Shown here piece by piece: positions 3,651-53,229 of a DNA stretch of 64,000 nucleotides (position 1 is the stretch's first letter; each line of letters starts with the position of its first letter). Under the pieces are notes generated by a model. That model was not told the DNA's origin, did no database searches, and saw only the letters and a program-made list of their open reading frames with translations. A program made the translations under genes and the position numbers. Origin of the DNA: Nannobrachium achirus (taxonomy: Eukaryota > Chordata > Actinopteri > Myctophiformes > Myctophidae); NCBI GenBank assembly GCA_963921795.1, contig OY997652.1:16545940-16609939 (forward strand), in the 5' to 3' direction.

Positions 3651-3845
3651 ATCGCTGTCGGGCAGAAACCTTTTATATCATGTCATCTTTTTATGTATTT
3701 TATTTTTCATAAATCAATGTCCCATTTTATACTTCATCGAATGACGGTGTCTGGCGAAAGTAGCGAAAATAGCAGATCTACAAGCACATAAACGCATTGC
3801 ATTGCCATGCGCTGTGAGCTTGTAGATCTGCTATGCTGTCTATTT
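3651..3845. mobile_element. TGTCGGGCAG-type MITE, copy 2 (decayed)
   Basis: Starts CTGTCGGGCAGAAACC. A well-formed shared hairpin sits at 3767-3834 (AGCAGATCTACAAGCACATA ... GAGCTTGTAGATCTGCTAT). The right end is eroded. Confidence 0.55.
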
Positions 3846-3944
3846 AAGGATGTCTGCCTATGACATGCCCAAAACAAACTCTCTCTGGGTTTTTGAGCGG
3901 TGCTAACCACTCCTACGTCTGGCATTGTGTGTATGCGCACGAAA

Positions 3945-4001
3945 CTCCTTGTATGGAGATACAGTAACTGACGTCACGGACAGAACGGCCCATACAAGGA
4001 G
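3945..4001. repeat. Short inverted repeat enclosing a CRE palindrome
   Basis: CTCCTTGTATGG (3945-3956) pairs with CCATACAAGGAG (3990-4001). The loop contains the palindrome TGACGTCA (3969-3976), a canonical CRE core. A related segment with TGACGTCA and GGACAGAACGGC recurs at 4403-4437. Confidence 0.6.
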
Positions 4002-4175
4002 ATATGCACGTGCGTCGTGAGAAAAGTAGTGATCATGCAGGTCAAAACTTTAAAGGCAATTACCGGTATTATTATTATTGTTACGATTGAAACAAATCAA
4101 ATACAGCTACCGTAATCTGTCAGACCAGATCAGTCTAAAAAAAGGTATATATAAAACCTTGAGAAGATTACCTAC

Positions 4176-4243
4176 CTGGATAGGTTCTCTCTCCATCATG
4201 TGCCCTTTTCCATCCCCACTCTGTTCTAAGGTGGAGTAGCCAT
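4176..4243 (-). CDS. arvcf: arvcf C-terminal exon
   Basis: A 68-nt exon (acceptor TTTACCAG|AT, donor ATCCAG|GTAGG). Encodes DGYSTLEQSGDGKGHMME, aligning with the DGYSTVDRRE segment of ARVCF; phase 0 out. Confidence 0.9.
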
Positions 4244-5535
4244 CTGGTAAATTAGAAAATACATACAGAGTGCAATTACAGATGGCAAACAGCAGGAACT
4301 AAGACAATGCGAGACATAGAAATTGTTGCATAAATGAATACCCTATTTATTTTTTATAATAATTCGTCATTCATTCATTCATAATTAGCAAAAATAGATG
4401 TCCGTATGGAGATAGCTGACGTCATGGACAGAACGGCATTATAATGACATGCCCGAAAATAGGGACACCAAGTTGAAAATATCGGTCAGTAGGTTTTATG
4501 AATATTGATCCAATGTAAATAAAGTATTAATTAACAAGGACTCATAATTAAATAATAACTACATTGGATCCATTAGAACACAGGCTCCTTTTTTCCATTT
4601 CAGAGATGCATTAACATCATAGTTGTCCCAGTGAGTGATGACAACATGCCACACTACTGTATCTTTACATCTGCTCACTGTGAGCAGATTTGTCTCCATA
4701 GCCTGTCTACTCTTTATTATACCCATAATATACCCCCATTCATTGCCTCATGCCATGTTTCATACTCGCACACAACCCCAACACATTGTTATCACACGCC
4801 CCAGACAGACAGAAAGATGGAGAGAGATACAGTAGGGCAGAGATTTGTGCTCTGCTGAGCACACCTTTCTAGTTTATTTTTCTTTGGAGATGAATATCTC
4901 AACCTGGTACAAGATTCATGCCACAAACAACACACTTTGCTTGAAGTGGCAGCACTCACTCAAAGTGAGATCCAAGAGAGCTAAAGGGCAATGCAAAATA
5001 TGTTCTTCATGCAAAGTAGAGCACTGTTATGCTCACCCCAAAGTTCATACATCATTCATATCCTGTTTTCCAAAAAAGTGGTATGAAACATTTCATTCTT
5101 TAAAACTCTATGCAGCTACAGTAGGCACAGACCACGGCTGGATGATTCTCTTGGATTGTTCCATGTGGGAGTATGGTTCCATTTGGGATGCACTCCCATC
5201 CACCAAGTCATCAGTGTGATATCAGTGTGATGTAAAATGGATTATGTGCCCATATATGGAGATCTCTGTATCTCTCAGTCCTTGTCCCTTTTTATGGGCA
5301 TATTGGTTGGATCGGCGGTTCTACTGAAATTCTTTGTTTTATACAACTATACATCATGCAAGTACAGTAACGGCAGGGATTAGTAGTTGGGATAATATAA
5401 ATCCTGGTGGTTTGTGTGGCAGCATAAACTTAAATCCATATCATTGGTTTATAGTTGGTCTGTGATTCAAGACTCAATTGAGTCAACTGCTTTTGTCACA
5501 ACATGATGAATATTTCAATGCTGTGATTTGCTTAC
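4244..5535. other. arvcf intron, mostly unique
   Basis: Intronic sequence holding one CCATATATGG palindrome (about 5252) followed by GAGATCTCTGTATCT, the flank found with the same motif at 24.6 and 44.7 kb. Small ORFs here show no family resemblance. Confidence 0.45.
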
Positions 5536-5620
5536 CTTGGTTTTTCTCCATGAGAGGTAGGGTGATGTCATCATTGCCTTGTTTTCCACTCTTTGATTTT
5601 TTAGTTCCTCCTGTAGTTGG
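5536..5620 (-). CDS. arvcf: arvcf C-terminal exon
   Basis: An 85-nt exon encoding PTTGGTKKSKSGKQ and NDDITLPLMEKNQG. Of two nearby AG acceptors, only CCCCACAG|CCAACTACAGG keeps the frame of the conserved DDITLPLMEK string. The donor is CCAAG|GTAAGC. Confidence 0.9.
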
Positions 5621-5667
5621 CTGTGGGGTTACATCATAACATCTTTAACATTATTATGCTTTGGTGT

Positions 5668-6135
5668 TTGTGGTTCTCAAAGTGAGGTCTGGGGACCCCC
5701 AGGTCATTGAGGGGGTTCCTGGGGGTCCCCAGCCCAGCTAACTTAGTTTATATAGTATCAATTAACCACTTTAACCCTAGAGGTTCACATCGAGAGTTCG
5801 GGCGGCCCTCACACCTACTACGTTGTACCGCCAATCCAACCGATAAGTCTATGTCATAGCAATCTGGCTAGCCATCGTCAAATAAAAGGGAAAAACAGCG
5901 TCCTCTCTGTTTTGTTCCTTTAGAGAGTCTGTTCTTGAGAGAATAATTTCATATTAATCTCTCAAGACCAGAACTTCCCACTAGCATGTAGAGCTGCTAT
6001 TTCCAAAAGAATAAATGTGAACAGATTTGGAATATTTCTGAAGCACAGATCTTGTATGGGGTCCCTGGCACAAAATATTTCCAGACAGTGGTCCACGGTC
6101 AAATACATATTAATTTGGGGGTCCTTGAACCATTG
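5668..6135. mobile_element. Decayed hAT-type MITE
   Basis: Begins GGTTCTCAAAGTGAGGTC and ends with GGGGGTCCTTGAACCATTG, the usual subterminal text of fish 'GGTTCTCAA' hAT MITEs. The right end stops about 40 nt before the arvcf exon at 6177. The inside contains a TTGACGATGGCTAGCC-type segment (inverted) that also occurs at 11640 and 55037. Confidence 0.45.
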
Positions 6136-6176
6136 TGTTAGACTGATTAACAGCAAGGGGATAGATTGGGACTTAC

Positions 6177-6288
6177 CTTGAAGTGGCTCTTGTTCCAACC
6201 TGCCTTACAAAGACTACTCCTCAGGTCCTTGTAGGCCCATATTGTCTGAAGCACATGGGATGCTGCCTTGGTCTCACGCAAAGATTGG
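6177..6288 (-). CDS. arvcf: arvcf exon, last armadillo repeat
   Basis: A 112-nt exon (acceptor TTCCCAG|C, donor TTCAAG|GTAAGT). Encodes SQSLRETKAASHVLQTIWAY and KDLRSSLCKAGWNKSHFK, the end of the armadillo domain. Confidence 0.95.
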
Positions 6289-6651
6289 CTGGGAAGAAGT
6301 AGACGTGTATGAGATCATGTGCAGAAAACAATAATTCACCTCTCGCCTGTCTAAGGGAGAAGTGATAACTACCTCTCCCTTTGGCCTCCTGAAAGGTGAC
6401 ATTTCAGGGCTGTTTTAAAGGATGCCTGTGAACTACTGTACAAGGGAGGGAGTCAGGGCCAAGAAGTCTGTGTTAATGAATGTCTCCAATGATCAATTAG
6501 AGGTGAACAATGGAATGTTTGGCAACTGCCCCTGTCTACAGATAAGTGACAAGTCGAGATGTAAACAAAACCATGTTTGTAAAATTGGAAAGTTCCATTG
6601 TTCACCTTTTAAATTGATTGGTTTTGAAAATCTTAGTTGAAAGACACAAAC

Positions 6652-6844
6652 CTTGTCTTGTTGATGGCTACCAATTTCTGCACAGTGTGGCCCTGTATGA
6701 GAGCCCGCGCGTTCTCTGGGCTATCAGAAATGATCTCATGGATTGTGTTCAGAATAGACACCACTGTGTCTGACTCAAGATTCTTTGCTGGGTGTTGCTG
6801 GCCACATGGCAGGTTATTGACCAGGTCCCTCATAGCATAGCTTC
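6652..6844 (-). CDS. arvcf: arvcf armadillo exon
   Basis: A 193-nt exon (acceptor CATTATAG|GA, donor ACAAG|GTTTG), phase 1 in, phase 2 out. Encodes SYAMRDLVNNL, DTVVSILNTIHEIISDSPEN and ARALIQGHTVQKLVAINKT; compare ARVCF DTVVAVLNTIHEIVSDSLDN. Confidence 0.95.
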
Positions 6845-6891
6845 CTATAATGAGACAAAAGCAACATACATAATCAAGTACTTATTTAAGT

Positions 6892-7007
<116 letters not shown>

Positions 7008-7038
7008 TGATTAATAGTAAAGAGCTAGACCCCCATAC

Positions 7039-7189: not shown

Positions 7190-7316
7190 CTATGAGCCGA
7201 AACATAGAAGAAGAGTGTTACTCATAATATTTTTTAGATCCGTTAAAAAAAAACATAGCCGTTGACCAGAGTCCCCAAGGGCTCTATACTCGTCCCTCTA
7301 CACCAAATCTCCAAAC

Positions 7317-7370
7317 AGCCGATCTACAAGCTCACAACGCGCTGCGGCGGCCCTGTTGTGAGCTTGTACA
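7317..7370. repeat. Shared hairpin core
   Basis: GCCGATCTACAAGCTCACAA pairs with TTGTGAGCTTGTA; flanked on the left by CCCTCTACACCAAATCTC, the same flank seen at 30190 and 62900. Confidence 0.7.
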
Positions 7371-7822
7371 TTTTCAGCAAATCTTCCCCAAAGAATAGGG
7401 ATGCTCAGGCTAAACATAACAGAACTGACAGATGTTTCATCACACCTACTGTATACCAGCTCGTATGATTTCTGGCCGGTGTGTGTACAAACAGGGAAGC
7501 TGTGTTGTTAAGCTTTAATAAAATCGTAGATGTTTTACATATAGGCATATACTCATACCATCAATAAGCATTAGTCAAAATAGAAGATAAAATATCAAAG
7601 AAGCACGCATACATTACACACACAAACGCACGTGTGTGCGCACACAAATACACATACACAATTACACATACGCAGTTACGCACACACTCAGATGTTTCTT
7701 TCCATTGCTGATGAGACAGCCACGTATTTTGTAGGATCTTATTTTGCATTACATTGATATGATTGAGACAAATGCACGCACGCACACACACAGCAGTGTA
7801 GCATCTGTTCCATCTCACTCAC

Positions 7823-7950: not shown

Positions 7951-7967
7951 CTTTAGAGACAAAAAAG

Positions 7968-8045: not shown

Positions 8046-8580
8046 AAGAGAGACACAGGGTGGTGAGATAAGCTTAAATCATCCTAACATATTGTTAGAA
8101 ACAGCAGAATACTCCCACACCAGATTGAGAATTAACCAGCAGTATGCGCACACACACAGTGGCTCATAAGATACAGTATGTACCCCCAGATCAACACTGT
8201 TCTGCCTGTTATACTTGATGGATGCACAGCAAATTATATTATGTTTTTGGCTGGACCAGCGGGTAAGCCTAATAGACTCACATCGCTGGCTGACTGACTG
8301 ACCGACTGACTGACTCAGGCATGTGCACACATAGTCATCAAAGGGGGCTTGAGCTCCTGCCCTTTTAGCCGTCTGTAAAAAGTGCCCTCTCCAGACCATG
8401 AATGCAGTTTTTACTGTGCTGAAAGAAATGCAAATGCCCTCTTTCCATGCCATAACTGAAGGCAGCATTCAAGAGAATTGCCTTGTCCAAATTCTCCTGA
8501 ACTTGAATGCAGCATCTTATGTTGAAAGAATTGCCCTTTCTGTATAGAAATCCATGCTCTACGCCACATCTCCAGTATTA

Positions 8581-8904
8581 GCCCTATTCACGGCCCGCCC
8601 ACTCAGCTTCAACTTCCTGGTGCTGACATCACGCTTTGAAGGGGAAACCCTACTAAAAGCCCATAGAGTTAACACAGAAATCGCAAATTTAATGCAATTT
8701 CCGAATAGTAAAGTATAAAATACGGCTAGCATGATCAAGAACACAAGATAGTAAAAGACACAAAGCATTATAATTTACTTTACCGTTCGAAATAATGATT
8801 TGTTGGCTTTAAGTCCAGCGATTTCTGTGTTAAAATAGCAGGGTTTACCCTTCAAAGCTGACGTCAGCACCAGGAAGTTGCTGAGAATAGGGCGTGAATA
8901 GGGC
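8581..8904. mobile_element. Harbinger-like MITE, copy 1
   Basis: A 324-bp element with ends GCCCTATTCACG and CGTGAATAGGGC, flanked by TTA on both sides. A 3-bp TTA/TAA target duplication fits PIF/Harbinger. The second copy at 19397-19712 shares a long internal stretch from AATCGCAAATTTAATGCA to TTGTTGGCTTTAAGTCCA. Confidence 0.7.
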
Positions 8905-9015
8905 TTATTGACTTGATTATGCTTAGTTCAGTGTGGTATCAAGCAAGCGTCGATAATTTCACCAAAAGGCCCTTTTAGGAGTTTCAGCCCCTGCCTCTCT
9001 AACATTCTCTGCACG

Positions 9016-9064
9016 TCCCCCTGACTGACTGACTGACTGACTGACTGACTGACTGACTGACTGA
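9016..9064. repeat. (GACT)n microsatellite
   Basis: About 11 perfect CTGA/GACT units. Confidence 0.95.
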
Positions 9065-11330: not shown

Positions 11331-11403
11331 AAAAATAGCAGATATACAAGCTCACAGCGCTGCACCGAGTGCCGCACTGCGAGCTTGTAGATCTGCTATT
11401 TTT
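11331..11403. repeat. Shared hairpin core in a hAT-type remnant
   Basis: AAAAATAGCAGATATACAAG pairs with CTTGTAGATCTGCTATTTTT. It is followed by a hAT-type tail (GGGGGTCCTTAACATG ... GGTTTGAGAACCACTGAC) ending near 11579. Confidence 0.75.
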
Positions 11404-11754: not shown

Positions 11755-11810
11755 AAAAATAGCAGATCTACAAGCTCGCAGCGCTGTGAGCTTGTATATC
11801 TGCTATTTTT
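11755..11810. repeat. Shared hairpin core, compact copy
   Basis: AAAAATAGCAGATCTACAAG and CTTGTATATCTGCTATTTTT with a very short GC-rich loop (CTCGCAGCGCTGTGAG). It is one of the cleanest copies. Confidence 0.8.
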
Positions 11811-12136
11811 CAATAGTTAAAGCATAAAATAATGATACACAATAATGTGTACCCGTTCTAAAAGGGTTACATTAAATAGGCTCTGTTTTAGTCATTTGGA
11901 TTGCAACATTTGCACTGTAGAGTGCATTTGCCATGGGCTGTAAAGCAGAGAGCCACATGGTGGTGCTCTGGTGCAGCAATTAGGGTAATCGGTCTGATAG
12001 GCTGTCAGGCTTTTAAAGATGGTCATATTTTCAAATATGGCCCTCTTTGGAAAAAGGCTGTGCATGAGAATTTGGGATTCAGGATTCTTTTACTGGCATA
12101 TTTTAAGTCAAATGAACTAATCAAGATTATCATTAC

Positions 12137-12850: not shown

Positions 12851-13043
12851 CAGTGTTTCTCAAACTTTTACATTTCAAGGTTCCCCTTAACTCTGACAGT
12901 GTACAAATGGAACCAAATGGATCTGTTAGGGTCCATTTGGTTCCATTTGTACACTGTCAGAGTTACATACTTGTATGGGTCAATTTAGCTGACCACCCGA
13001 AAGGAACCCAGAGAGTCCCTGGAATCAACTTTGAGAAACACTG
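12851..13043. mobile_element. hAT MITE with perfect target duplication
   Basis: Ends CAGTGTTTCTCAAAC and CTTTGAGAAACACTG, exact 8-bp duplication ATGTAGAT on both sides (12843-12850, 13044-13051). The inside is a near-perfect palindrome (12891-12966) with arms such as CTGACAGTGTACAAATGGAA. A shorter relative lies at 17788-17893. Confidence 0.88.
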
Positions 13044-13226: not shown

Positions 13227-13551
13227 TTAAAGGGCCACTTCACCTCTGGGACAACCCTATCTTATTTTATTGTTGTTTGGGACACGATCAACACAATCCT
13301 GAGTTATTTCTTTGTGTTCAATCTGTGTTTTTAGATATTTTAGTATTTCAGCATGACTGGTGATGCATTTTGCATCATCAGTGATGCTTTTTGCATCATA
13401 TGATGCAAAACGCATCACTAGTACATGCTGAAATACTAAAATATCTCAAAAAACAGATTGAACACAAGAAATAACTCAGGATTGTGTTGATCGTGTCCCA
13501 AACAACAATAAAATAAGCTTGGGTTGTCCCAGAGGTGAAGTTGCCCTTTAA
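13227..13551. mobile_element. piggyBac-type foldback MITE
   Basis: The whole element folds on itself: AGGGCCACTTCACCTC at the left pairs with GAGGTGAAGTTGCCCT at the right, and pairing continues inward to a TGATGCAAAA-type loop. It is flanked by TTAA on both sides, the target duplication of piggyBac. Confidence 0.85.
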
Positions 13552-14512: not shown

Positions 14513-14951
14513 CAGTGGTTCTCAACCTGTGGGTCGGGACCCCCAGGGGGGGTCCCCAAATTATTTTTGGGGGTCCCCTGATGATTAACTTAATGTGCAA
14601 CATTGTTTTCTCACAAACCAACATAAAGTGTAGGCGTATAGAGGGAATCTGCACATTTCTAAAGTGACACTTTAAGGACATTTACTAAAATGACAAATTA
14701 AACATCGTCCAAATTGTCTAATATTAGAGGCAGAAATTGTGAAAATCTCCGATCTACATGCTCACAACGCCTCGCAATGCGAGGCGTTGGCGGTGGCGGG
14801 CGTTGTGAGCATGTAGATCTGCTATTTTCACAATAGAATTGTTTTATACAAAATGTAATGCCTCAACTCTTAGAGCTCGTCAGGGTGGGGGGTCCCCTGT
14901 TAAAATATGATTATTTTGGGGGTCACGGCCTGAAAAGGTTGAGGACTACTG
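14513..14951. mobile_element. hAT MITE carrying the shared hairpin
   Basis: Ends CAGTGGTTCTCAACC and GGTTGAGGACTACTG, with 8-bp flanks CTATAGAT and CTGTAGAT (one mismatch). The inside (14741-14829) holds the shared hairpin: GATCTACATGCTCACAACGC pairs with GCGTTGTGAGCATGTAGATC. Both arms carry the same C to A (CATG) change. Confidence 0.85.
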
Positions 14952-17893: not shown

Positions 17894-17894
17894 T

Positions 17895-19712: not shown

Positions 19713-19943
19713 TAATATCCTTTGTGAACAGTCCTGTCACTTTACTGTATATGGGTTGAGGAAAGAGCGTCTGGCATGCAGTAACAAGTGAAACCTCCTT
19801 ATTTATCGACTTTACGACAGACTGTCATCTCTGATTGATAGCACCTGCTCCTAAACTTCAGCCCATCTGTCTCTCCTGCCCACTAGGCTGGCTGCATGGA
19901 TGGGACAAACTAAAGATGTCTGTTGGGCTATGGAGCATAAAGG

Positions 19944-20026
19944 CCCATTCCCACTGGGCCAGATAAAAGATATCTGGAGAAATATCTCCAGATATCTTTT
20001 ATCTGGCCCAGTGGGAATGGGCCTTA
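19944..20026. repeat. Perfect 41-bp-arm palindrome
   Basis: AAGGCCCATTCCCACTGGGC and onward to CTGGAGA, loop AATA, then the exact reverse complement ending GCCCAGTGGGAATGGGCCTT. Probably the core of a foldback MITE. Confidence 0.85.
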
Positions 20027-20897: not shown

Positions 20898-21003
20898 TAT
20901 AGCAGATGTACAAGCTCACAGCGCGGCACAAAGTATAGCAGATGTACAAGCTCACAGTGTGTCACTTCATGCCGCGCTGCAGGCTTGTACAGGTGCTATT
21001 TTT
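20898..21003. repeat. Shared hairpin core, arm duplicated
   Basis: The left arm GCAGATGTACAAGCTCACAG occurs twice in tandem (20901 and 20937), followed by a single right arm GGCTTGTACAGGTGCTATTT. Confidence 0.7.
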
Positions 21004-24031: not shown

Positions 24032-24259
24032 GCAGGCGGGTGTGTGTGCAGGCGGGTGGGCGGGCGGGCTGGGGGGGGGGGAACAGTATCTCTGTAGCCA
24101 TTAAACGAAACGGGTTTCTTACATTGATGCTCCTACATCATGCAAGCACCAGTTAAAGTTACTTTCCATCCCTCATATACTGTGTGCACAGTGCACATCC
24201 CATAACCCACACACTGCACATCATTTTGGAGCTCATATCTTTGAACGGGTAAGGGCTAG
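23701..24259 (+). mobile_element. Non-autonomous Helitron, copy B
   Basis: Same 5' end (TCTATACTATAATTTTGC) and 3' end (AAGGGCTAG|T) as copy A. The middle is replaced by a (TG)n array and a GGCGGGTGGGCGGGC tract (23953-24080). Confidence 0.6.
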
Positions 24260-24321
24260 TATGTCAAATCGACCATCTTCCTCTGGACAAGTCTATATAT
24301 AGTATATAGGCCTATATTAAT

Positions 24322-25099
24322 TTACCAGTAAGACTCCCTAATCGGGAGATAAGCGCACAAATAGGCCAAAAGTTTGTTTTACCAATTATTACACTCTATG
24401 TGAACATTTACATCAACAAATCCCAAGTACTATGCAGAACGACCCATTTCAAGTTTTTAATGTACAACAATATTTAGAAAATAGGTCTACAAGCTGACAG
24501 TCCTCGTCCCTTATATTCCCATAGGTTATATGGAGATCTCAGTGTTTGTCAGTCCTTGTTCATTTATGCCCATATATGGACATCTCTATATCTACTGTAA
24601 CAGTCCTTGTCCCTTTATGCCCATATATGGAGATCTCTTAACTGTAAGTCCTTGTCCCTTTTATGCCCATATATGGATATTCCTGATGTCATCAGTATAT
24701 GAACATATATGGGCTTTCTGATATGCCCATATATAGAGATCTCTTAACTGTAAGCCCTTGTCCCTTTTATGCCCATATATGGATATCCCTGATGTCATCC
24801 GTATATGCCCATATATGGGCTTTCTAATATGCCCATATATGGAGATCTCTGTATCTCCATATATGGGTATAAAAGGATACTTCAGGTCTGACATCAGGTT
24901 TGTTTATATTGGGTTGCTAGGTTTGACATCACAAACTCTATGGGCCATCTGACCTAGAAATCTATATTTGGGCATAGATGACTCATCGTGACCTCATCAC
25001 ACGTCGACCGCACGTGTGACGTGCGGTCGACCGCACGTGTGACCGACGGACGGCCGGTGGAGGTTTTCATACTAAACTGTGACCTTACGGTCGCAATTA
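24322..25099 (+). mobile_element. Helentron-like element, copy 2, with CCATATATGG units
   Basis: Starts TACCAGTAAGACTCCCTAAT and ends GTGACCTTACGGTCGCAATT. The interior carries about seven CCATATATGG palindromes (24570-24865) in a GCCCATATATGGAGATCTCT context, then the palindrome GACCGCACGTGTGACGTGCG (from 25006) just before the 3' end. Confidence 0.55.
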
Positions 25100-25217
25100 G
25101 TGAATACATTTTCTCCATTGACCTGAATGGGAAAATGCAAAAATGTAACTTTTCCCAAATATGGAGATGACTTGAAAGAGTCATCTCCATCTCCATACTC
25201 TTAAATCTAATGTTATT

Positions 25218-25413
25218 GATGCCTCATTCACATACAGAAAAGCCAGGCTAATGGTTTGCTTGGTAATTCAATGTATTCTCTATGCAAACCAGCTTTTAAA
25301 ATTTCCAAGCTGGAAAAAAAGCTTGGAATCTTTTAAAGCTGGTTTGCATAGAGAATACATTGAATTACCAAGCAAACCATTAGCTTGGCTTCTCCCAGTG
25401 TGAATGCAGCATC
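25218..25413. mobile_element. Foldback MITE
   Basis: Inverted arms: TGGTTTGCTTGGTAATTCAA and onward to CAAGCTGG, with GGAAAAAAAG at the centre. The outer ends GATGCCTCATTCACA and TGTGAATGCAGCATC also pair. No coding content. Confidence 0.75.
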
Positions 25414-25774
25414 AAGAGTAAGACGGAAATCATTTGCAAGTGTGACTCGCGTCACAGCAACCACACTTTCCTCTAGAGTTATACTAGTAAGACACCTCAG
25501 GGAAACATGACAATTTTCTTGCTATCTGGCCAGTGATGTATATCGGACCAGTTACCCAATCTCAACAGTGCCTGTTGAGATTGGCAGAACATGCCCATAT
25601 ATGGGCATTCACAAATATGGGCATTCCCAGATATACCCTTAATATTGATGACATCGGGACAGGGATTTCCATATATGGGCATAGAACGGACAAGGACGTA
25701 ATTAATTTGCAAGTGTGATCTGGGAATGCCAGATATGCCCTTAATATTGATGACACTTTGAGATAAGTTTGGTT

Positions 25775-27714: not shown

Positions 27715-27820
27715 CCCTTCCTCTGAGCTGGTCGAGTCATCCTGGTGATGTCAGAATGAGTAAGCCATAGCCATATGGAGATCCGGGTCATGTCTGATGA
27801 TGTCAGTGTTTGTCTCTACT

Positions 27821-27866
27821 CCATATATGGAGATCTATGTGATGATCCAGTCAGCTCCATATATGG
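27821..27866. promoter_or_regulatory. Two perfect CArG boxes upstream of the clcc1-like ORF
   Basis: CCATATATGG at 27821-27830 and 27857-27866, 36 bp apart, 196-241 bp upstream of the ATG. Both fit the SRF consensus CC(A/T)6GG. They belong to a repeat-borne motif family, so their role is unproven. Confidence 0.45.
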
Positions 27867-28029
27867 AGATTTGTGTTGTACCAACTTGGAAGGTAACAAT
27901 TAAGATGATGTGAAAAGCCTTCTTAACAGTCACCATGTCACTTTGAGCCAACCATGTCCATATACTGTATAGAGGTCCAGGTCAGGTCCAAGATGTCAGT
28001 CATAGATGAGTCAGACAGGACCATGGAAT

Positions 28030-28240
28030 TGCAGGTCGGCGATGCCCAAATATGGAGTCCATGATGTCATACTCCAGTCTCCAAGTATTCTGACTAGCAA
28101 CAATGTTAACCGTAACAACCTGAACTCACCCACACATGTTGACTAACAATAACAATCATCTGACATCAAAGTGATTATATAATTTGTCATTAACAAATAT
28201 GGGCTTAATATTGATGACATCAGGGATCTCCATATATGAG
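28030..28240. other. Intronic sequence with CArG-like motifs
   Basis: Contains CCAAATATGG (about 28046) and CTCCATATATGAGC. Otherwise unremarkable. Confidence 0.4.
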
Positions 28241-28241
28241 C

Positions 28242-28500
28242 ACACTGTAAAAAATTAAAAGTTGGGAAAACTCAAAATTTTAAGGCAACAAACTTCAGAA
28301 AACCTTTGAGTTTAGGGCAACTTAGAATTTTAAGTTAAGCAAAAATTATAAAAGCTGAGGCAACTTAAAATGTTAAGATACACCAACTAAACCAATTTAA
28401 GCAAAACTTAAAGTTTTATGTTTGATTGTCTAACTTAAAAGTTTTCTGAAGTTTGTTGCCTTAAAATGTTGAGTTTTCTCAACTTTTATTTTTTACACAG
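28242..28500. mobile_element. MITE with CACTGTAAAAAAT ends
   Basis: Left end ACACTGTAAAAAATTAAAAG; right end CAACTTTTATTTTTTACACA. The interior is symmetric around AACTTAAAATTTTAAGTT-like text. Frequent fish MITE type; superfamily not assigned. Confidence 0.65.
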
Positions 28501-28740
28501 CATAAAAGAGATTTGGTTCCCCTGGCATCAGAGGGATCTCCATATGGCAATAAAAGGGATTTGGTTCTCCTGACATCACAGTGATTATATATTGGCATTC
28601 ACAAATATGGGCTTAATATTGATGACATCTGGATCTCCATATATGGGCATAAAAGGGATTTGGTTCCCCTGGCATCACAGGGATCTCCATATGGCAATAA
28701 AAGGGATTGAAATCACATTGAGAGATGGGCGCTACTCGAG
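28501..28740. repeat. Tandem-like ATCTCCATAT repeats
   Basis: The string CATAAAAGGGATTTGGTTC with a neighbouring GATCTCCATATGG recurs about three times (28500-28705), one copy with the full CCATATATGG. Confidence 0.6.
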
Positions 28741-29960: not shown

Positions 29961-30417
29961 CAGGGGTCTTCAACGTTTTCAGGCCAAGGAACCCTTTGTT
30001 GAGAGAGAGAGATGAAGCAGGGACTCCCACATCCTGTTCATAGATTCCATATAGTTTCATCGTTTGGCAACACAATCATCAGTGTATTTTGGGTTCATGT
30101 CAATTTGTGTTTTCAGATATTTAACCACTTGAACCGTCAATACTTAATAAACTTGACCTTTCACTCTGTACTTAGTCTGCTCTTTTTCCCCTCTACACCA
30201 AACCTCTTTGCCAATAATAGCCGATCTACAAGCTCACAACGCTTCGCAGCACGAAGAGTTGTGAGCTTGTAGATCTGCTATTTTTGGCTACAGTTCTCAG
30301 AATATGGACACTAGAGTTCAAGTTGTTAATATAAAAAGGATTGGAAGATTTGGAGGACCCCCTGTAGTAACTCTGAGGACCCCCTAGAGGTCCCGGACCC
30401 CCTGTTGAAGACCCCTG
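29961..30417. mobile_element. hAT MITE carrying the shared hairpin
   Basis: Ends CAGGGGTCTTCAACG and GTTGAAGACCCCTG; exact 8-bp duplication GTCTAACC at 29953-29960 and 30418-30425. Internal hairpin at 30214-30285 (ATAGCCGATCTACAAGCTCA ... GTGAGCTTGTAGATCTGCTA). Confidence 0.9.
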
Positions 30418-31695: not shown

Positions 31696-31943
31696 TCATT
31701 GTCGGGCAGAAACCTTGTATCTCTAAGTTTCAAATGTGTATGTTTTTTGGTAAAGTAAAGCCCTGCTTCATTATACACGACTTTCGCACAAGACTAGTGA
31801 AAATATAGCTATCGACAAGCACACAACGCCTGGCGATGCGAGGCGTTGTGTGCTTGTAGATTGACTATTTTCAATCTTTTTCAATATAACAAAAATAGGA
31901 AGGTTTTGGACAAACAAGGTTTCCACCCGACAACGACGATGTG
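31696..31943. mobile_element. TGTCGGGCAG-type foldback MITE, complete copy
   Basis: TIRs TTGTCGGGCAGAAACCTTGT and ACAAGGTTTCCACCCGACAA. The shared hairpin lies at its centre, 31799-31871 (ACAAGCACACAACGCCTGGC ... GAGGCGTTGTGTGCTTGTAG). Confidence 0.85.
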
Positions 31944-34213: not shown

Positions 34214-34726
34214 CATACATGGGCAACTGGCGGCCCGGGGGCCACATGCGGCCCCCACTGGCCCGCAGGTAAATACCAGAATACTGATAGTATATTAAAT
34301 TGATTTCAGCTGTTACAATTCCAAACATAACCTGCTTTAATTCCATCAGTCTATTTTAGTACTAGCATAGTAGTACTAAAATGTATTTTTTTTATGTCCA
34401 ATTTATTTGTATTTAGGTTCATAAAGTTAACATGAGTATATAACTAAATGCGTTTGAAATGAAATCAAAATGTTACATTTCAGGATTCCAATTAAAAAAT
34501 AACAAAAAATTATTCAGGATTCCAATTCAAAAGAAGCAAAAATAGCCGATCTACAAGCTCAAAACGCATCACGCTGCGTTTTGAGCTTGTAGATCTGCTA
34601 TTTTTGCTTCTTTTGTATGAGATACTAGAATGACAAAGTAGGACTTGCAATATGCAATGTGGCCCCCTTGAGTGAAGGTGGAAATATAGTGGCCCTCGAC
34701 ATCATCAAAGATGCCCACTCCTGTAC
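34214..34726. mobile_element. hAT-type element carrying the longest hairpin
   Basis: Ends roughly ATGGGCAACTGGCGGCCC and GATGCCCACTCCTG, with flanks ACTAGAAT and TACTAGAT. The internal hairpin 34529-34614 has arms of about 40 bp, from AAAAGAAGCAAAAATAGCCG to CTATTTTTGCTTCTTTT. Confidence 0.65.
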
Positions 34727-35629: not shown

Positions 35630-35831
35630 CTGTCGGGCAGAAACCTCGTATCTCCAAGTGATCGTCGCACAAAACTAGTGAAAACAGCAGATCTACAAGC
35701 ACACAACGCCTCGCGATGCGAGGCGTTGTGTGCTTGTAGATCGGCTGTTTTCACTAGTTTAGTATATTTTTTAGATGATAAATACAAAATGAACGGTTTT
35801 GAACATACAAGGTTTCCACCCGATAACGACA
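35630..35831. mobile_element. TGTCGGGCAG-type foldback MITE
   Basis: TIRs CTGTCGGGCAGAAACCTCGT and ACAAGGTTTCCACCCGATAA. The hairpin 35671-35760 extends outward to AAACTAGTGAAAACAGCAGA and TCGGCTGTTTTCACTAGTTT. Confidence 0.85.
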
Positions 35832-35960: not shown

Positions 35961-36642
35961 ACAAAGCTGGATGCACCTCGATGGATTGGAACACAACCTC
36001 TGCGGTGGTGGGAAGCCACTTCACCACTGTGCCACTCGAGCATTGGCATGTACCGGTAGTTTTGAATGTGGTTTGACGCGCACGTCACTCTGCTGTAACC
36101 AGACTTGATTTCGCTTTTTGTTTCGATTATCTTTTCAGTGGATTTGATCGTATCCACTACTGACAGGATTGTCAGAACTAGAAGTCTTTCATATTCCATT
36201 AACTTACTGAGTTGTTAAACTGACTCCCCGCAATTGTCCGCCAGTAAATGTATTTTTAGACTTTTATCAAAACTAAATATAGAAAATACGTTATTCTTTG
36301 GGTGTTTTAAATGTATAATTTGTGCTGCAGCTGTTCTATTAACTCTAAATTCCCATTTTGAAGGCAGACGCATTAAACACTGCAGTCATTGCAATTTTTG
36401 TAATTAAGTAAGTCAGGAGCCAAAGAGCATCCGGCTCATTAGCGCAAGAGCTTGATCACACAAAATCTAGATTTTTCAACCAGGCCACATTTCCATGCAA
36501 TGAAATGTGTCAGAGGGAGGCAGAGAGGACAAGTGGAACACACAGAACACATCTAGAGAATCCTAACTTGAGCACTTATGGGTATATGATTGGAACCGTA
36601 GTCATGCGGGGCTAAAGTGACTATAAAGTGGCTAAAGTTGTC

Positions 36643-36778
36643 TTCTTGTAGATCTGCTATTTTCACTCGTTTTCTGCGACAGCCCTGTATGATGAAGCAG
36701 GCCTTTACATTACGTAAAAACATAGAAATCTGAAAATTGGAGATACAAGGTTACATGCCTGACAGTGACGATTTGTAT
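36643..36778. mobile_element. TGTCGGGCAG-type MITE, right half only
   Basis: Starts inside the hairpin (TCTTGTAGATCTGCTATTTT), continues CACTCGTTTTCTGCGACAGC and TGATGAAGCAGG, and ends near GATACAAGGTTACATGCCTG. It shows the full symmetry of the family. Confidence 0.6.
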
Positions 36779-39343: not shown

Positions 39344-39756
39344 CAGGGGTGTCACAAGGGGAGGGGGAAAGTGGGACTGAGTTACTAGGGCCCATGGTGG
39401 ATGTGGCCTTAATTATTTTATACTTTAGCTATTGAAAAATAGCAGATACACAAGCTCACAGCGTGGCACTGCGAGCTTGTAGATCTGCTATTTTTGTAAA
39501 GTCGTGAAAATGTGTGCAAATCTTTGAATAATATGTATTTTTAAAGCTAACATTTGTAACTAAAATTTTGCTTTGGGGGGGGGGGGGGGGGGGGGGGGGT
39601 TCCATGGCTAAATACATATCATTTTGAGGGTCCTTCACATGAAAATGTTTGAGCACCACACTGACATAGAAACCCCCTCCCCCTATGAAGAACATTCATG
39701 GGGGGCCCGCAGTGAATCCTTGTACCCAGGGCCCAGAATTTGGTGCGACACCCCTG
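39344..39756. mobile_element. hAT MITE carrying the shared hairpin
   Basis: Ends CAGGGGTGTCACAAGG and GGTGCGACACCCCTG with exact 8-bp duplication GAAATAGA (39336-39343 and 39757-39764). The hairpin lies at 39434-39496, then a hAT 'GGTCCTTCACATGAAAATG' text and a G-run (39577-39599). Confidence 0.88.
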
Positions 39757-40504
39757 GAAATAGATGCAGCTGGAGCTGCATTGAGAAGCCCACACTTAGT
39801 TTAGTTCTGTCACCCACATTCAGGACAACAGGAGACTTAAGGAAAGAGGGATGGAAAAGTACAGAAATATACTGCACGAAGTACCAAGACAATTCATCAT
39901 AGGCTACTGCACACAAACATATTAGGCTATCAAATAGTACCAGGGAAAAAAATATGTTATTCCCTGCGAGACACTCATCTTTGTCTTCATGAGACCTATT
40001 TAAACAAGAGGCTGACGCAAGGAACGGCTAATGCCACTTATGTTTGATTTATACTCCCATCGTACAACGGTGTTGCCGGCCGGAAATAGCAGATCTACTG
40101 TACAACCACATAACACAAAGTATAAATCAGCCTTAATGAGAGTGTTTGTAAAACAGACAAGCAAGAATAATGAGATATAAACCAGGAATAACCAGGAACC
40201 TTCTCCAAGCTAAAGCTCTCATCTGCCCTATAGAACCCATCCCAAAACTACTGGAAGAAATATTTCATGTCCTAGTTTGTCTCAAAATAATGTTATGTCT
40301 TCTCAAAATGGTAGTTTGTGTTCAAAATATGTTGTGCTGAAATGACCCCCACGTACAGTGTAGTACACACTTGAGCCACACATATGTACCACTGATAGAC
40401 ATTTCTAAGAACCAGTTGAACACTGATGCTAAATGGTACTAACTTGCTTGCACAAAAAGTAGAACATATAGTAAGATAGCAATCTTCATCAGATCCAGGT
40501 TCTG

Positions 40505-44159: not shown

Positions 44160-45125
44160 ACCAGTAAGACTCCCTAATCGGGAGATAAGCGACCGTTGGT
44201 CGCTTATCTCCACAAATATCACAGCCTCCACCTCTCACGTCATACGGGCAGCCATAGTTACACCTGGAATGTTGAATCTCCATATATGGAGATAACCTAC
44301 CCATCACACAAAGTCTGACCTCACCAGCCCATACCTGGGCATGGACGACTTATATCTCCATATACGGAGATGGCCATATATGGAGATACGATGACATCAC
44401 AGAGTCCACAGCTGATGATGTGGCGTGATGTCATACAATACACAAACAAGCCCTATATAAAGGGGCAATTCTCACCAGGGAAGAGAGCATTCCCCACTAG
44501 CTGAGTATCTTAAGATGGTTGGATGTGATGATAAGCCACAAATAGGCCAAAAGTTTGTTTTACCAATTATCAAGACATATGGGCAGTTGACAGTTTGCCA
44601 TTGTTACTCATTGAAGTTGAATCTCCATCTGAATCCCTTTTATGCCCATATATGGAGATCCCTGCTCTGAGTATCTGACATCACTAATCCCTTTTATGCC
44701 CATATATGGAGATCCCTGCTCTGAGTATCTGACATCACTAATCCCTTTTATGCCCATATACAGTATGGAGATCCCTAACAGAATCCATTTTATGCCCATA
44801 TATGGAGATACCTGCTCTGAGTATCTGACATCACTGTGATGTCACCTGTTTATGCCTAAATATGGAGATCCCTGCTCTGAGTATCTGACATCACTGCGAT
44901 CTCACCTGTGATGTCACAGTGACACATCACCTCAGTATCTGTGATGTCACAGTGACACATCACCTCAGTATCAGGCGTTACACGTATACATTGAGCAGGG
45001 CAAAGGTGTGACGTGTGTGACGGACGGACGGACGGACGAACGGACGGACGGACGGACGGACGGACGGACGGACGGACGGACGGTGGAGGTTTTCATACTA
45101 AACTGCGACCTTACGGTCGCAATTA
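44160..45125 (+). mobile_element. Helentron-like element, copy 3
   Basis: Starts ACCAGTAAGACTCCCTAATC with an adjacent hairpin (GCGACCGTTGGTCGC) and ends CTGCGACCTTACGGTCGCAA. The interior has several CCATATATGG boxes in tandem units of about 54 bp (44640-44830, each with CTGCTCTGAGTATCTGACAT), then (GGAC)n at 45017-45081. Confidence 0.6.
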
Positions 45126-45329
45126 CACTGCCGCACAGTAGTAATTGTGTGTAGTAATTGTGATTAATAACTCCACATTCTTTTCATGCTCAGCATGGAA
45201 TTTCACATCAATGCCCACAGACTGGCTCACACAGCAGCTCAGTGGAGTCAATGCAGGCCTTTCATCCATGGCCCCCACCCCTCTGTTGCCCACAGTGGTG
45301 GAAAGAAACTAAGTACATTTACCAAATAC

Positions 45330-45651
45330 TTAAAGGAGTAGTTCACCCCCAAAATGATTTTTTTTCTATTGATTACTCATGCCATGGAGAGTAGAGTTCA
45401 ATAATATTTTTGGGTTTTTGTCACATTCCTAAGACAAAAATGTGATTCGAGTAAATTTACCCCCATTGATTCCGGATGGGGACCCGTTTCGAAACGGGTC
45501 CCCATCCGGAACGAATGGGGGTAAATTTATTGTTATCATATTTTTGTCTTAGAAATGCGACAAAAAACTAAAAATATGATTGAACTCTAGTCTCCATGGC
45601 GTGACTAATCAATAGAAAAAAAGTCATTTTGGGGGTGAACTACTCCTTTAA
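45330..45651. mobile_element. piggyBac-type foldback MITE
   Basis: TTAA, AGGAGTAGTTCACCCCCAAA ... TTTGGGGGTGAACTACTCCT, TTAA. The arms pair along nearly the whole length, with GACCCGTTTCGAAACGGGTC at the centre. Its right TTAA (45648-45651) is also the first base of the tandem duplication that follows. Confidence 0.88.
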
Positions 45652-45699
45652 GTGCACATTTGAAATATACTGTATATTTGATATATACTGTGTGTGTGT

Positions 45700-45719
45700 A
45701 TATATATATATCATTTGTA

Positions 45720-45784
<65 letters not shown>

Positions 45785-45805
45785 ATATATATATATATAT
45801 ATACA
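45700..45805. repeat. (TA)n microsatellite
   Basis: Two TA runs separated by ACAATAT; duplicated at 48885-48985. Confidence 0.97.
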
Positions 45806-45956
45806 GTATTCAGTACTGTTACTTAAAAAATAATAATAAATTCATATTGGTACTTTAAAAACACTGCAATCGTTTGAAAACCTAAGTTACTTTCTTTTGA
45901 TTTGATATGACAAAACATACAGTACATTAGCCACTGCAGCCCTGTATATACTCCAG

Positions 45957-46030
45957 CCATTTGCTGATCTACAAGCTCACAACGAGTCACAAAGCGAGGC
46001 GTTGTGAGCTTGTAGATCTGCTATTTTCAA
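45957..46030. repeat. Shared hairpin core in block A1
   Basis: GCTGATCTACAAGCTCACAA pairs with TTGTGAGCTTGTAGATCTGC; duplicated at 49140-49210. Confidence 0.8.
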
Positions 46031-46352
46031 ATGTTGAAATTTTTATACATGATTTGAAAACTTGTGAAATGGGACATTCCGCTTAATGAGTACTTTTACT
46101 TTTAGTACTGTAAGTATATTTTGATGCAAATATTTTGTACTTTTTGTGCGGAATAAAGTAAAATCTGAATACCGGACTTGTAAACGAGTATTTCTACATT
46201 GTGATATTGATGCTTTTACTTAAGTAAATTATGTATTTCTTTCCACCACTGGTTGCCCACCAGTCCTCTTACATTACTGTGTTACCTTAACTTTTCTTTC
46301 AAGGTTAAAATACTAAAGAATTAGTCAAGAGCAGTGGAAAAGGATCCAACAG

Positions 46353-48902: not shown

Positions 48903-48965
<63 letters not shown>

Positions 48966-49535
48966 ATATATATATATATATATACAGTATTCAGTACTGT
49001 TACTTAAAAAATAATAATAAATTCATATTGGTACTTTAAAAACACTGCAATCGTTTGAAAACCTAAGTTACTTTCTTTTGATTTGATATGACAAAACATA
49101 CAGTACATTAGCCACTGCAGCCCTGTATATACTCCAGCCATTTGCTGATCTACAAGCTCACAACGAGTCACAAAGCGAGGCGTTGTGAGCTTGTAGATCT
49201 GCTATTTTCAAATGTTGAAATTTTTATACATGATTTGAAAACTTGTGAAATGGGACATTCCGCTTAATGAGTACTTTTACTTTTAGTACTGTAAGTATAT
49301 TTTGATGCAAATATTTTGTACTTTTTGTGCGGAATAAAGTAAAATCTGAATACCGGACTTGTAAACGAGTATTTCTACATTGTGATATTGATGCTTTTAC
49401 TTAAGTAAATTATGTATTTCTTTCCACCACTGGTTGCCCACCAGTCCTCTTACATTACTGTGTTACCTTAACTTTTCTTTCAAGGTTAAAATACTAAAGA
49501 ATTAGTCAAGAGCAGTGGAAAAGGATCCAACAGAG

Positions 49536-50432
49536 CGATGGTCTAGTCTAGTGGTATAAAGATCAGACTCTCAGTGCAAAGGTCCCATGTTCAAATCTCA
49601 GTCCTCCCACATTGCTGTAATACATTTATTTTCAACATTAAAATACAAAAGAACTACTCAAAATATCTATTGGCATATGGTTTAGCTGACTGGTGATTGG
49701 ACTCTCAGTTCAAAGGATCCATGTTCTAATCCGAGTCCTACTAGGAATAAAGTTAATACCTCTGATGAGAGATGGTCTACTCTAGTGGTCTAAAGATCAG
49801 CCTCTCAGTGCTGAGGTTCCAGGTTCAAAACTCAGTCCTCCTACATTGCTGTATTACTTGGACCTTTTTCAAGGCTAAAATACAAAAGAATTACTCAAAA
49901 GCACCAGAAGATATCTGCATTGAGAGATGGTGTAGTGGTGTAAAGATTAGACTCTCAGTGTAGAGCTTCTGTGTTCGAATGTCACTCCTCCTATGTTGCT
50001 GTTTTACTTTAACATTTCTTTCAAGGTTAAAATATAAAAGAGTTAGTCAAAAGCACTGGAAAATGCGTCTAGTGGTCTAAAGATAAACCCTCAGTTCAGA
50101 GGTCTTATTTTCAAATCCGAGTTCTCGTATAGATCATTGTTACTTTTCAAGGTTAAAATACAAAAGAAGTATTCAAAGCACCAGTTAAAGTCTGCTGTGA
50201 GAGATGGTGTAGTGGTTTAAACACCAGACTCCAAATGCAGAGGTCATATGTTCAAATCCATTCCAGGAGTGCTTTGACCTTTTCAAGGCTAAAATAGAAG
50301 AGAAAACTCAAAAGCACCAGGAGAAACCTGTTGAGGGCCCAAAGGTGCCTTGGCTCAATGGTATGGTCGCTTGATCGGTTGTCCCTGTTTCAGGCAGGTT
50401 TCAGACAGGTTCAAGTCCCATGCCCAAGGTAC
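49536..50432 (+). repeat. Array of tRNA-like units, duplicated copy
   Basis: Same units as 46353-47250, almost without change. Confidence 0.65.
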
Positions 50433-50639
50433 ATGGAGGACCATCGTGGAGGGGTGTCCCTCCCCCTGTTTCCTGAGAGCTAAAGGTAGGGGGTTATATC
50501 TGAAAGAACTCTGTCCAACAAAAGTTTTACAGAACATTTTTTTAACAACATGCCTTGAGACCACTGGAAGAATTTGAGAAAATTGAGACAATTTTAGCCT
50601 TCAAAAGATCAATGTACTCCAGAGATGGGCTGTAGGTTG

Positions 50640-51709
50640 AGTGGGATTTGAACATGGAACCTCTTAACTGAGAGTCTGAGCCTTAGACCATTAGGCCATC
50701 TCTCTCACTGTAAATGTGCTCTAGTGCTTTTGAGTACTTATGTTGTATTTTTTAACCTTGAAAAGATCCAAGTAATAGAGCAGAATCATAGTAGGGTGAC
50801 TGGTTTTTGAACACAGAACCTCTGCACCCAAAGTCTGATCTTTAGACCACTACACCATCTCCAACCTAAAAAACATCAGGTGCTTTTGAGTAATTATTTT
50901 GTACTTTACCCATGAAAATGAAAAAGTAAAACAGCAATGTAGGAGGATTGAGATTTGTACATGGAACATCAGCAATAAGAGTCTGATCTTTAGACCACTA
51001 CTCCATCTCTCACTAACTTTTGAGTGCTCTTGAGTAATTCTTTTGTATTTGAACCTTGAAAAGGTCCAAGTAAAAGAGCAGTTACCTATGGGAGGACTGG
51101 GATTTGAACATGGCACCTCTGAACTGAGAGACCAATTATCAGTCCACTAGACCATATGCAGGGTTGACAACAATAGAATGTCAGTATCAGCAAATTTTCT
51201 ATTTCTATTTTTTTAAGGGGGTAGGGGGGAGATTCCCTAAACGCCTTGGCCCAAAGGTGCCTTGGCTCAATGGTGTGGTGCACTTGATCGGTTGTCCCTG
51301 CTACAGACAGGTTTCAGACAGGTTCAAGTCCCATGCCCAAGGTAAACAGGGACCATCGGGAGGGGTGTCCCTCCCCCTGTTTCCTGAGAAATAAAGGTGT
51401 AGTAAATTCAACTGACTTTAATTAGTTCAGAATGTTAGGCTTGAAAATGTCAAAATACTCCAGCAATGAACCATAGGAGAAATGGGAATTGAACACTGAA
51501 CCTGTGAACTCAGAGTCTGACCGTTACACCACTACACCGTCTCTCCCTGGAGGTGTTGCCTAGTGCTTTTAACTAATTATTTTGTATTCTGTAAAATCTG
51601 TATATTTTGTATTAAAGGAAGGTCCAAGTAAAACAGCAATGATTGACTGAGATTTGAACATGGCACCTCTGAACTGAGAGACCAATCATCAGTCTACTAC
51701 ACTATATGC
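50640..51709 (-). repeat. Array of tRNA-like units, minus strand
   Basis: Six units of the same family in reverse orientation (about 50640-50708, 50795-50863, 50941-51013, 51093-51159, 51479-51546 and 51641-51709). Each carries GGGATTTGAACATGG (complement of the B-box) and TTAGACCACTA. A plus-strand unit of the CCTTGGCTCAATGG type lies among them at 51247-51335. Confidence 0.65.
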
Positions 51710-51759
51710 AAGTTTACCAACCTTGGACTGTCAGTATCAAAAAGATTTCCATTTTTTTT

Positions 51760-52348
51760 GTAAAGGGGGACTCCCCAACCCGGGGTCTGAGGGTCCTCCC
51801 CCAAGAACTTAATCTTAACATATCTATTTTCCTGTGTTCTGTTGAATTTTGCACCAATAATTCGCCATGCAACTCCTTGCAACCATTTTAAGGTCAACCG
51901 CACCAAAGCAACTATTTGCAACTGCCTTAATGGTTGCATGATGTTGCAATGCCAATCAACATCACAACAAGGCTCGACCTGTTGTCCGGGACAACTAATA
52001 CATATTTAAACGTAGCCTTCTGGCTCTTGGTTTCACCTTTTCTATGATGCTCATAGCAGCTTTGTGCTGTATGCAGACTATGGATGGTGGAGTGGAGGCG
52101 GCCAGGGGGGGGGGGGGGTCTTAATTATTTGTAAAAATAAAAAAAATAAAAGAAGAAAAAATATATAGATATTTATAGGGGTGCCCTGAGCCAAAAAAAA
52201 AGTTTGGGAACCCCTGGTCTACATATATGTTCAAATCCTGGTTGTCCTGTGGTTCAATGTTGGAGTGTTTAAAGTTATACTATGTAACTTTTTTAATAAA
52301 AAAAATTAAAAAATCAAATCGCTAAAGTTTTAGAACACCCACTTCGTT
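51760..52348. other. Rest of block C
   Basis: Includes a decayed hAT end (AGTTTGGGAACCCCTGGTCT, near 52200) and a TTAAAGTTATACTATGTAAC text (about 52268), common at the ends of a fish MITE type. Confidence 0.4.
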
Positions 52349-52573
52349 AATTTCAGCCCCAAAAGCCTTTTCTTTATATGTTTTCTACATAGCCTTGACA
52401 GGGCTGTATTTCCCGGCAAAATGATGTCATCTCCCACATGATACACTACCGGCCAATCACAGCGCAGATCATACACCACCGGTCCCTTCAGGAATTAGCT
52501 TCCCTCAGCAACTGTGTTTACAGTACATTGGTGAAGGAATCTTGATTGCTACTCCCTCAATCCTGGTCTAAAA

Positions 52574-52684
52574 ATGATGGGAGACGGCTCTACGGACGCG
52601 TATCGGCGAGGCGGAGGTGGTCGCGGCGGCCGCGGTGGCGACTCCGGGCGAAAAACGGGCGGAAAAAAGCAATACCGCTACTGA
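52574..52684 (+). CDS. Small RGG-rich ORF, block B2 (36 aa)
   Basis: Same start and end as the ORF at 47494, without the ten-residue PRTPVLVVRG segment. The reading frame is preserved. Confidence 0.3.
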   Translation: MMGDGSTDAYRRGGGGRGGRGGDSGRKTGGKKQYRY

Positions 52685-53002
52685 CCACTAGTTGAGCAGC
52701 TTCCACAGTACAGCTTTAACTTTACCAACTCAAAGCTAACATACTAAAGAACACTCTTCAACATTACTAAGAGATGCCTGCTACGAACAGACAGACATAG
52801 CATGCATGCACCGTTCAAACATTATGTCACGTCAGAAAAAAGGCGAAATACCTAGAAAAAGGTGAGTCCCAAAATCAAATACCCAAATTTCCTTGTCTGC
52901 GGACAACATCGATGCTGATTGGCCGCTTCTTTCCTTGATTCCTCGATTCCTCCTCGATTTGATTGTTCTTTTTGTTGAAAGGTGTGAGATCTAGCTCTCT
53001 CT

Positions 53003-53229
53003 GAGGGCCCTATTATGATCCAGGTCTTATGCCTTATGCCTTAACTTCTTTGCCTTTTTTTACTATTTTGTTTTTGTTTTTTAAATATTTCAAATAGCTG
53101 ATCTGCAAGTTCACAACGTGCAGATGTAGATCAGCATTTGAAGTATTTAAAAATGTTTTTCAAAATAGTGAAAAAAAGGTAAAGAAGTTAAGGCACAAGG
53201 CATAAGACCTGGATCATAATAGGGCCCCT
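53003..53229. mobile_element. Foldback MITE inserted only in block B2
   Basis: Ends GAGGGCCCTATTATGATCCA and TGGATCATAATAGGGCCC. Arms pair inward (TTAACTTCTTTGCC / GGTAAAGAAGTTAA) to a central hairpin of the shared type (53092-53146, GCTGATCTGCAAGTTCACAA). Block B1 has the empty site, a plain CTCTCTCTCT run (about 47943). Confidence 0.85.

Follow-up and report, generated by a model that had tools for sequence, protein, structure and literature searches.

The DNA analysed here is a 64,000-nucleotide stretch of Nannobrachium achirus (assembly GCA_963921795.1, contig OY997652.1, positions 16,545,940 to 16,609,939 of the forward strand), called the window below. Its coding content includes an armadillo-repeat exon, whose best solved-structure match was catenin delta-1, and an open reading frame (ORF) of the MCLC chloride-channel family. 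The subject of this work is a self-complementary DNA hairpin of about 70 bp, AAAATAGC[A/C]GATCTACAAGCTCACAACGC ... GCTATTTT, which is shared by transposable elements of different kinds, among them several miniature inverted-repeat transposable elements (MITEs). The original prediction, made from the sequence of the window, placed this hairpin in the middle of unrelated MITE families, as a module that enters them or as a structure kept for a function. As a whole, this interpretation was partly supported.

The hairpin module in the window and the genome

A search of the window by nhmmer with a profile of the listed hairpins gave 16 matches. Two of these (20898 and 20934) belong to one rearranged hairpin copy, and the hairpins at 45957 and 49140 represent one copy doubled by local duplication, with flanks 99–100% identical, so the window holds 14 independent hairpins. 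The original prediction listed 14 main positions, and a hairpin was present at every one; the hairpin at 3302–3367 had been overlooked. Of the three fragments also listed, that at 36643 is a clear single arm, that at 40083 is a short left-arm piece and that at 62920 is weak. The hairpins, their remnants and the elements that carry them are as follows (capital letters name host families or groups).

3302–3367, + strand: hairpin in a TGTCGGGCAG (T) element at 3132–3447, found by nhmmer
3766–3837, + strand: hairpin with a T-type left flank, a T-like left arm and a right arm of the common type; the right T end was not found
5983–6002, + strand: single-arm remnant in a group-C-like stretch
7312–7381, + strand: hairpin whose left flank resembles family B
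11332–11402, + strand: first hairpin of an inverted group C pair
11756–11809, − strand: group C hairpin, second of the inverted pair; the outer end near 11866 looks piggyBac-like (CCC end)
14513–14951, + strand: hAT element A, ends CAGTGGTTCTCAACC, duplication CTATAGAT/CTGTAGAT, hairpin at 14742–14828
20898–21002, + strand: rearranged group-C-like hairpin, left arm repeated
29961–30417, + strand: hAT element B, ends CAGGGGTCTTCAAC, exact duplication GTCTAACC, hairpin at 30214–30284
31700–31932, + strand: T element, hairpin at 31802–31871
34214–34723, + strand: hAT-like element E, identified by eye, with right end CAGGAGTGGGCATC, a degenerate left end, an imperfect duplication and a hairpin at 34539–34604
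35631–35825, + strand: T element, hairpin at 35681–35751, the best-formed copy of the window
36639–36662, − strand: single arm of a broken T element
39344–39756, + strand: hAT element X, ends CAGGGGTGTCRCA, exact duplication GAAATAGA, enclosing part of a group C unit, hairpin at 39436–39494
40084–40098, + strand: left-arm fragment
45293–46251, + strand: element F, ends CAGTGGTGGAAAGAAA, exact duplication GTTGCCCA, hairpin at 45957–46027
49138–49208, + strand: duplicate of the 45957 hairpin
53005–53227, strand not assigned: foldback G, ends GGGCCCTATTATG, diverged central hairpin at 53091–53141
62918–62936, strand not assigned: weak arm remnant
63986–64000, + strand: start of a further T hairpin, cut by the window end

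Alignment of 14 window hairpins gave the majority consensus AAAATAGCAGATCTACAAGCTCACAACGC...GCGTTGTGAGCTTGTAGATCTGCTATTTT with a variable middle; loops with GCGC are the mark of group C hairpins. The shared part stops sharply at AAAA/TTTT, and the fringes beyond differ by host. The arm pattern (up to three mismatches) matched the window 29 times, compared to 0.17 matches expected from shuffled sequence (largest shuffle, 1). DNA folding of six hairpins gave z values from −8.8 to −20.4; in each case all 200 shuffles folded less well. Strong palindromes that lack the hairpin are also found in the window, for example at 12888–12965, 13227–13551, 19940–20025 and 25216–25415.

The genome searched comprises 1.66 Gb in 564 contigs. 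A 17-base arm (up to two mismatches) matched it 337,126 times on the forward and 336,790 times on the reverse strand, in total 673,916 times, compared to 158 matches (82 and 76) for the same arm pattern read backwards. If each hairpin contributes two arm matches, the genome would hold an estimated 337,000 hairpins, about one per 4.9 kb. The density of arm matches was 0.406 per kb in the genome, 0.406 per kb in the window (26 in 64 kb) and 0.43 per kb (86 matches) in a sample of 200 kb taken at fixed positions of our choice on 20 contigs (loci L049–L068), indicating that the window is ordinary for its genome. In the same sample, nhmmer detected 70 whole or partial copies, which together occupy 3,913 bp (2.0%). 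At three places (L020:48–278, L026:1458–1636 and contig 1 near 3708064), hairpin arms have multiplied to form short tandem arrays, whose periods are close to 52 and 45 bp.

Host elements

A set of 136 copies was assembled from the window, the 200-kb sample and 30 loci (L019–L048), with the overlapping loci L027, L028, L036, L041 and L043 left out. Loci L019–L048 are the first matches on contig 1 and were picked through an exact arm match, so this part of the set is biased. Single-linkage clustering by flanks, the check proposed with the original prediction, distributed the 136 copies over 25 clusters, 12 of them multi-copy, and did not unite them as one ancestral element; cluster C lumps several hosts (e.g. 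L020, L044 and L050), which are hidden in its group means. Among the hosts are hAT elements of several end types (8-bp duplications), the TGTCGGGCAG (T) family, a probable piggyBac-like unit and a foldback.

The claim that hAT MITEs with 8-bp duplications are among the hosts held for all three elements named, at 14513 (one mismatch), 29961 (exact) and 39344 (exact). A script search found hAT-like ends with an 8-bp duplication (up to one mismatch) around 22 of the 136 copies, a count made without a shuffled control, as were the next two hAT results. Hosts A, B, X and I carry CAG...CTG inverted ends together with an 8-bp duplication that is exact or has one mismatch. A search for hAT-like elements blind to the hairpin found 14 in 264 kb, nine of which hold it. 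Of the five hairpin-less elements, two on L068 seem to have arisen by local duplication of a single A copy that kept an arm stub only, two lie on L060, and one is the window element at 12851–13043, whose ends are of the same style but surround a different palindrome. The hAT-like end sequences were CAGGGGTCTTCAAC (B), CAGGGGCGTCACAAGG (X), CAGGGACGTGCAGAG (I), CAGTGGTTCCCAAACG (J), CAGTGGTTCTCAACC (A) and CAGTGGTGGAAAG (F). Such ends were also found around T elements (CAGGGACGTGCTGG, CAGGGGTCAGCAACCC and CAGGGGTTCCCAAACTT), implying that some hAT-like elements are not direct hosts and enclose another hairpin-bearing element.

Two-ended T elements, found by their TGTCGGGCAG pattern, held the hairpin in 10 of 10 cases; in a further T copy, on L059 near 9870, it is mostly deleted. 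The T ends read (AT)CGTCRCTGTCGGG. A 2-bp AT duplication is a trait of the ISL2EU group of PHIS transposons; by eye, AT stands beside ATCGTC at both ends of the window element 3132–3447 and of L050:7252–7469, and is mismatched in other copies. The terminal repeats of the ISL2EU group of PHIS transposons usually begin with GG, according to the available text of PMC4482050, and those of the T family do not.

The hairpin had been expected at the centre of its hosts. This is so in foldback G, which has no clear target duplication. In group C, however, one hairpin lies towards each end of the unit, and the two were in inverted orientation in all 11 pairs inspected. The outer ends of group C resemble those of piggyBac elements, two of six having an exact TTAA before CCCATTTAG, and parts of group C sit within hAT element X. 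One group C unit (L042:1493–2429) has a first hairpin followed by a long insert ending in a GGTGGCGCAGTCAGTAG-like sequence (other strand) that adjoins a hairpin arm; this insert looks like a short interspersed nuclear element. Within 8516–9019 of the window, family I flanks stand on either side of a long diverged inverted repeat, and the flank junction at 8950 is without a hairpin.

All hosts could descend from a single ancestral MITE and have diverged least at the centre. The similar hAT ends of A and B, the hAT end inside C and a weak match between E and T flanks adjoining the hairpin are consistent with this. However, the ends differ in sequence and in duplication length (8 bp versus others), implying that the hosts are not one diverged MITE; the flanks form 25 clusters, and within families the centre changes no more slowly than the flanks. 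Over the 8 bases next to the hairpin, identity between families was at chance level (0.269), and on this ground the explanation, which we consider highly improbable, was rejected.

Origin of the shared hairpin

The arms themselves are alike between hosts, with a mean identity of 0.795 over 27 bases between different half-flank groups. A two-arm filter kept 81 of the 136 copies for the tests of fringe, both-arm changes and nearest hairpin (83 copies for the A/C mismatch count below). The first 8 outside bases, so different between families, pair with each other within a copy: pairing was 0.468 (mean of 16 groups, 81 copies), a value that none of 772 permutations reached. Bases 9–16 showed no such pairing (0.251 versus 0.258; 469 of 771 permutations). 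The hosts had been described as palindromic elements; inverted repetition past the hairpin is clear for about 8 bp only in these 16 groups, and G and L021 are palindromic further out. G and L021 have a like flank type on both sides of the hairpin, and L025 and, by eye, L067 seem to consist of two left halves of family B. The G, L021 and L025 copies look like products of turn-round copying at the hairpin.

A mismatch between the two arms, A against C at position 9, was found in eight of ten labelled groups (T 7/10, B 6/15, A 2/6, W 2/2, I 2/3, K 1/1, L 1/1, C 3/35; F 0/3 and J 0/1) and in four of six singles. Since this mismatch is common to unrelated hosts, it indicates that whole hairpins were passed on, without a separate doubling of a half in each host. 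The claim that hairpin subtype follows host was borne out for C, T, W and A, but not clearly for B, I and F. The GCACACA type, with A at position 21 of both arms, occurred in nine of 81 copies, all of the TGTCGGGCAG family (10 family copies in the set). The nearest hairpin came from the same family in 0.723 of 72 copies, compared to 0.257 with shuffled labels (largest 0.392), which fits few entries followed by amplification; by family, the value was 0.91 in C, 0.78 in T, 0.75 in W and 0.67 in A.

It is possible, if rather unlikely in our judgement, that the hairpin is a very small transposon in its own right, with short palindromes as insertion sites that it enters at their axis, the 8-bp fringe being its target and not a product. 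This would agree with the sharp boundary at AAAA/TTTT between shared part and host-specific fringes, with the very high copy number, and with a family I copy near window position 8950 that may be an empty site or an excision footprint. However, no constant direct repeat or target duplication was seen by eye at the hairpin ends, and nested insertion with a constant target duplication was rejected on the same inspection. In C, T, W and A the subtype tracks the host, implying that hairpin entry was rare and not continuous, and every two-ended T copy has the hairpin. Among the matches listed, hairpin-less T and A copies retain arm stubs, as deletions would.

Selection might instead maintain the hairpin, perhaps because it yields small RNAs or helps to bring transposon ends together. 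In favour of this, the hairpins fold strongly, and both-arm changes filled 78 cells, compared to 30.0 (sd 5.0) when partners were shuffled over all copies. The excess over shuffles within families was modest (63.7, sd 4.8, largest 83 of 2000). We read both excesses as reflecting subtypes founded with both arms already changed, though selection for pairing is conceivable. Conservation was compared in the window and L049–L068 only. Arm positions 11–21 reached an identity of 0.954 within families, compared to 0.877 for flanks; these positions are, however, part of what was used to detect copies, and the full 27-base arm reached only 0.887 against the same 0.877 (means of 21 half-flank groups). 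Special conservation of the hairpin, favoured by the window set (arms 0.98 and flanks 0.755 in C1 and C2), was therefore dropped on the larger set. Thus the arms, said to be well conserved, are alike between families and not clearly above flanks within them. A search of the window against Rfam gave no match at gathering score, microRNA families included; the sub-threshold microRNA matches concerned one hairpin stretch only and are, in our judgement, made without a control, what any perfect hairpin would give. Copies with the hairpin deleted also occur. With arms that decay about like flanks, the proposal of a kept function found little support, and we consider it improbable.

The proposal that a module enters, or is copied into, palindromic elements was supported, the flanks, ends and target duplications of the hosts being unrelated. 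We suggest, with a probability of roughly 0.45, that the hairpin entered the founder of each family as repair filler copied whole from another element, through repair-coupled capture and fold-back synthesis. A cut-and-paste element would be excised or interrupted, leaving a gap to repair, and during repair the template would change to a hairpin copy, of which the genome has a great many. Self-complementarity of the filler would allow strands synthesised from either side of the gap to anneal. A nascent strand, once folded, could serve as its own template for about 8 bases of host flank, giving the host-specific inverted fringe, and the resulting short element, its ends intact, would go on to amplify together with a private hairpin subtype. 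The hairpin would thereby hitchhike on several transposases while coding for nothing. The abundance of the hairpin far above the control, and its even density in window, sample and genome, speak for this model. Snap-back duplication from inverted repeats of 5–9 bp has been described in yeast mutants, as has template switching at hairpins (PMC7999016, available text); according to the available text of PMC4168063, gap repair with template switching yields defective transposon copies. Such processes may also act in this genome.

Several observations weigh against entry as repair filler. No capture event was seen, nor any undoubted empty site in the window and sampled loci among the matches listed; the sole candidate for one is the family I copy near 8950, which is ambiguous. 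Bases 17–24 outside the hairpin showed a weak pairing excess (0.317 versus 0.260; 15 of 746 permutations) that the model does not predict. Same-family nearest hairpins were few in B (0.45), I (0.17) and F (0), which have no clear private subtype, and group C has two subterminal hairpins and no central one. Choice of a palindromic target would explain the 8-bp fringe equally well.

Among the titles and opening abstract text listed by searches of the open-licence literature, none describes a hairpin common to transposon superfamilies. A 12-base piece of the hairpin core had one full-text match, in a microalga paper, and 18 exact 16-base matches in viral contigs included none with a second arm nearby. 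The closest published case found is that of the CMITE families of Acropora corals (PMC2872659), which, in the text available, combine differing terminal repeats with one conserved 75-bp internal region of unknown origin. That region also occurs in tandem arrays, about 1600 copies are estimated in one genome, and MITE origin and the gain of internal sequence are called unclear. As in CMITEs, families with different ends share an internal region, here one hairpin with 25 flank clusters and several end types. In contrast to CMITEs, all of which are described there with TTAA duplications and piggyBac-like CCC ends, hAT elements with CAG ends and 8-bp duplications are among the hosts here, and what they share is a hairpin, bordered by an inverted fringe of its own and present in hundreds of thousands of copies. 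A further trait of the CMITE group is a shared region better conserved than the terminal repeats; the comparison made here was between arms and adjacent flanks.

Another likeness is to Galileo, a foldback-like P-superfamily element of Drosophila: in the text available of PMC4168063, gap repair involving slippage or template switching reshapes its long inverted repeats, and internal sequence is recruited into them. Galileo is, however, one element family, and no module common to unrelated families is reported in that text. The Made1 MITE, likewise a short palindrome able to fold into a hairpin, is one family that gives the mir-548 microRNA genes (PMC1784062, text available), whereas the present hairpin lies in many families.

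A bolder and doubtful proposal is that the hairpin is a hyperparasite of transposons: 70 bp without a gene or a transposase of its own, which would spread between superfamilies via repair gaps, gain an 8-bp fringe at each entry, seed MITEs and make up about 2% of the genome. If true, this would be DNA that multiplies to hundreds of thousands of copies through shape alone, riding several transposases. A module common to elements of differing ends and duplications, together with a host-specific 8-bp fringe, would provide a testable signature of a family-founding event. Repeat classification by internal sequence can, in such a case, merge unrelated families.

Other repeats of the window

The palindrome at 12888–12965 (78 bp, different from the hairpin) lies in a 193-bp hAT-like MITE at 12851–13043 with an exact duplication ATGTAGAT and ends in the style of A and C; its arm had three matches in the window and four in the 200-kb sample. 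The palindromic element at 13227–13551 (325 bp) has ends TTAAAGGGCCACTTCACC and GATGCA-type repeats at its centre, and its arm had no match in the 200-kb sample. A palindromic repeat, CCCATATATGGAGAT, at about 24200–25700, 27819–28700 and 44350–44860, gave 30 matches (up to one mismatch) in the window compared to 10 in the 200-kb sample, indicating local enrichment. At 57162–57930, a 109-bp inverted repeat, 98% identical with its halves 551 bp apart, overlaps a 255-aa ORF without a Pfam match. The local duplication extends over 45.3–49.3 kb, and AAGGCGAAACACC...GAGTCCC repeat arrays occur twice, at 47.8–48.8 and 52.8–53.9 kb.

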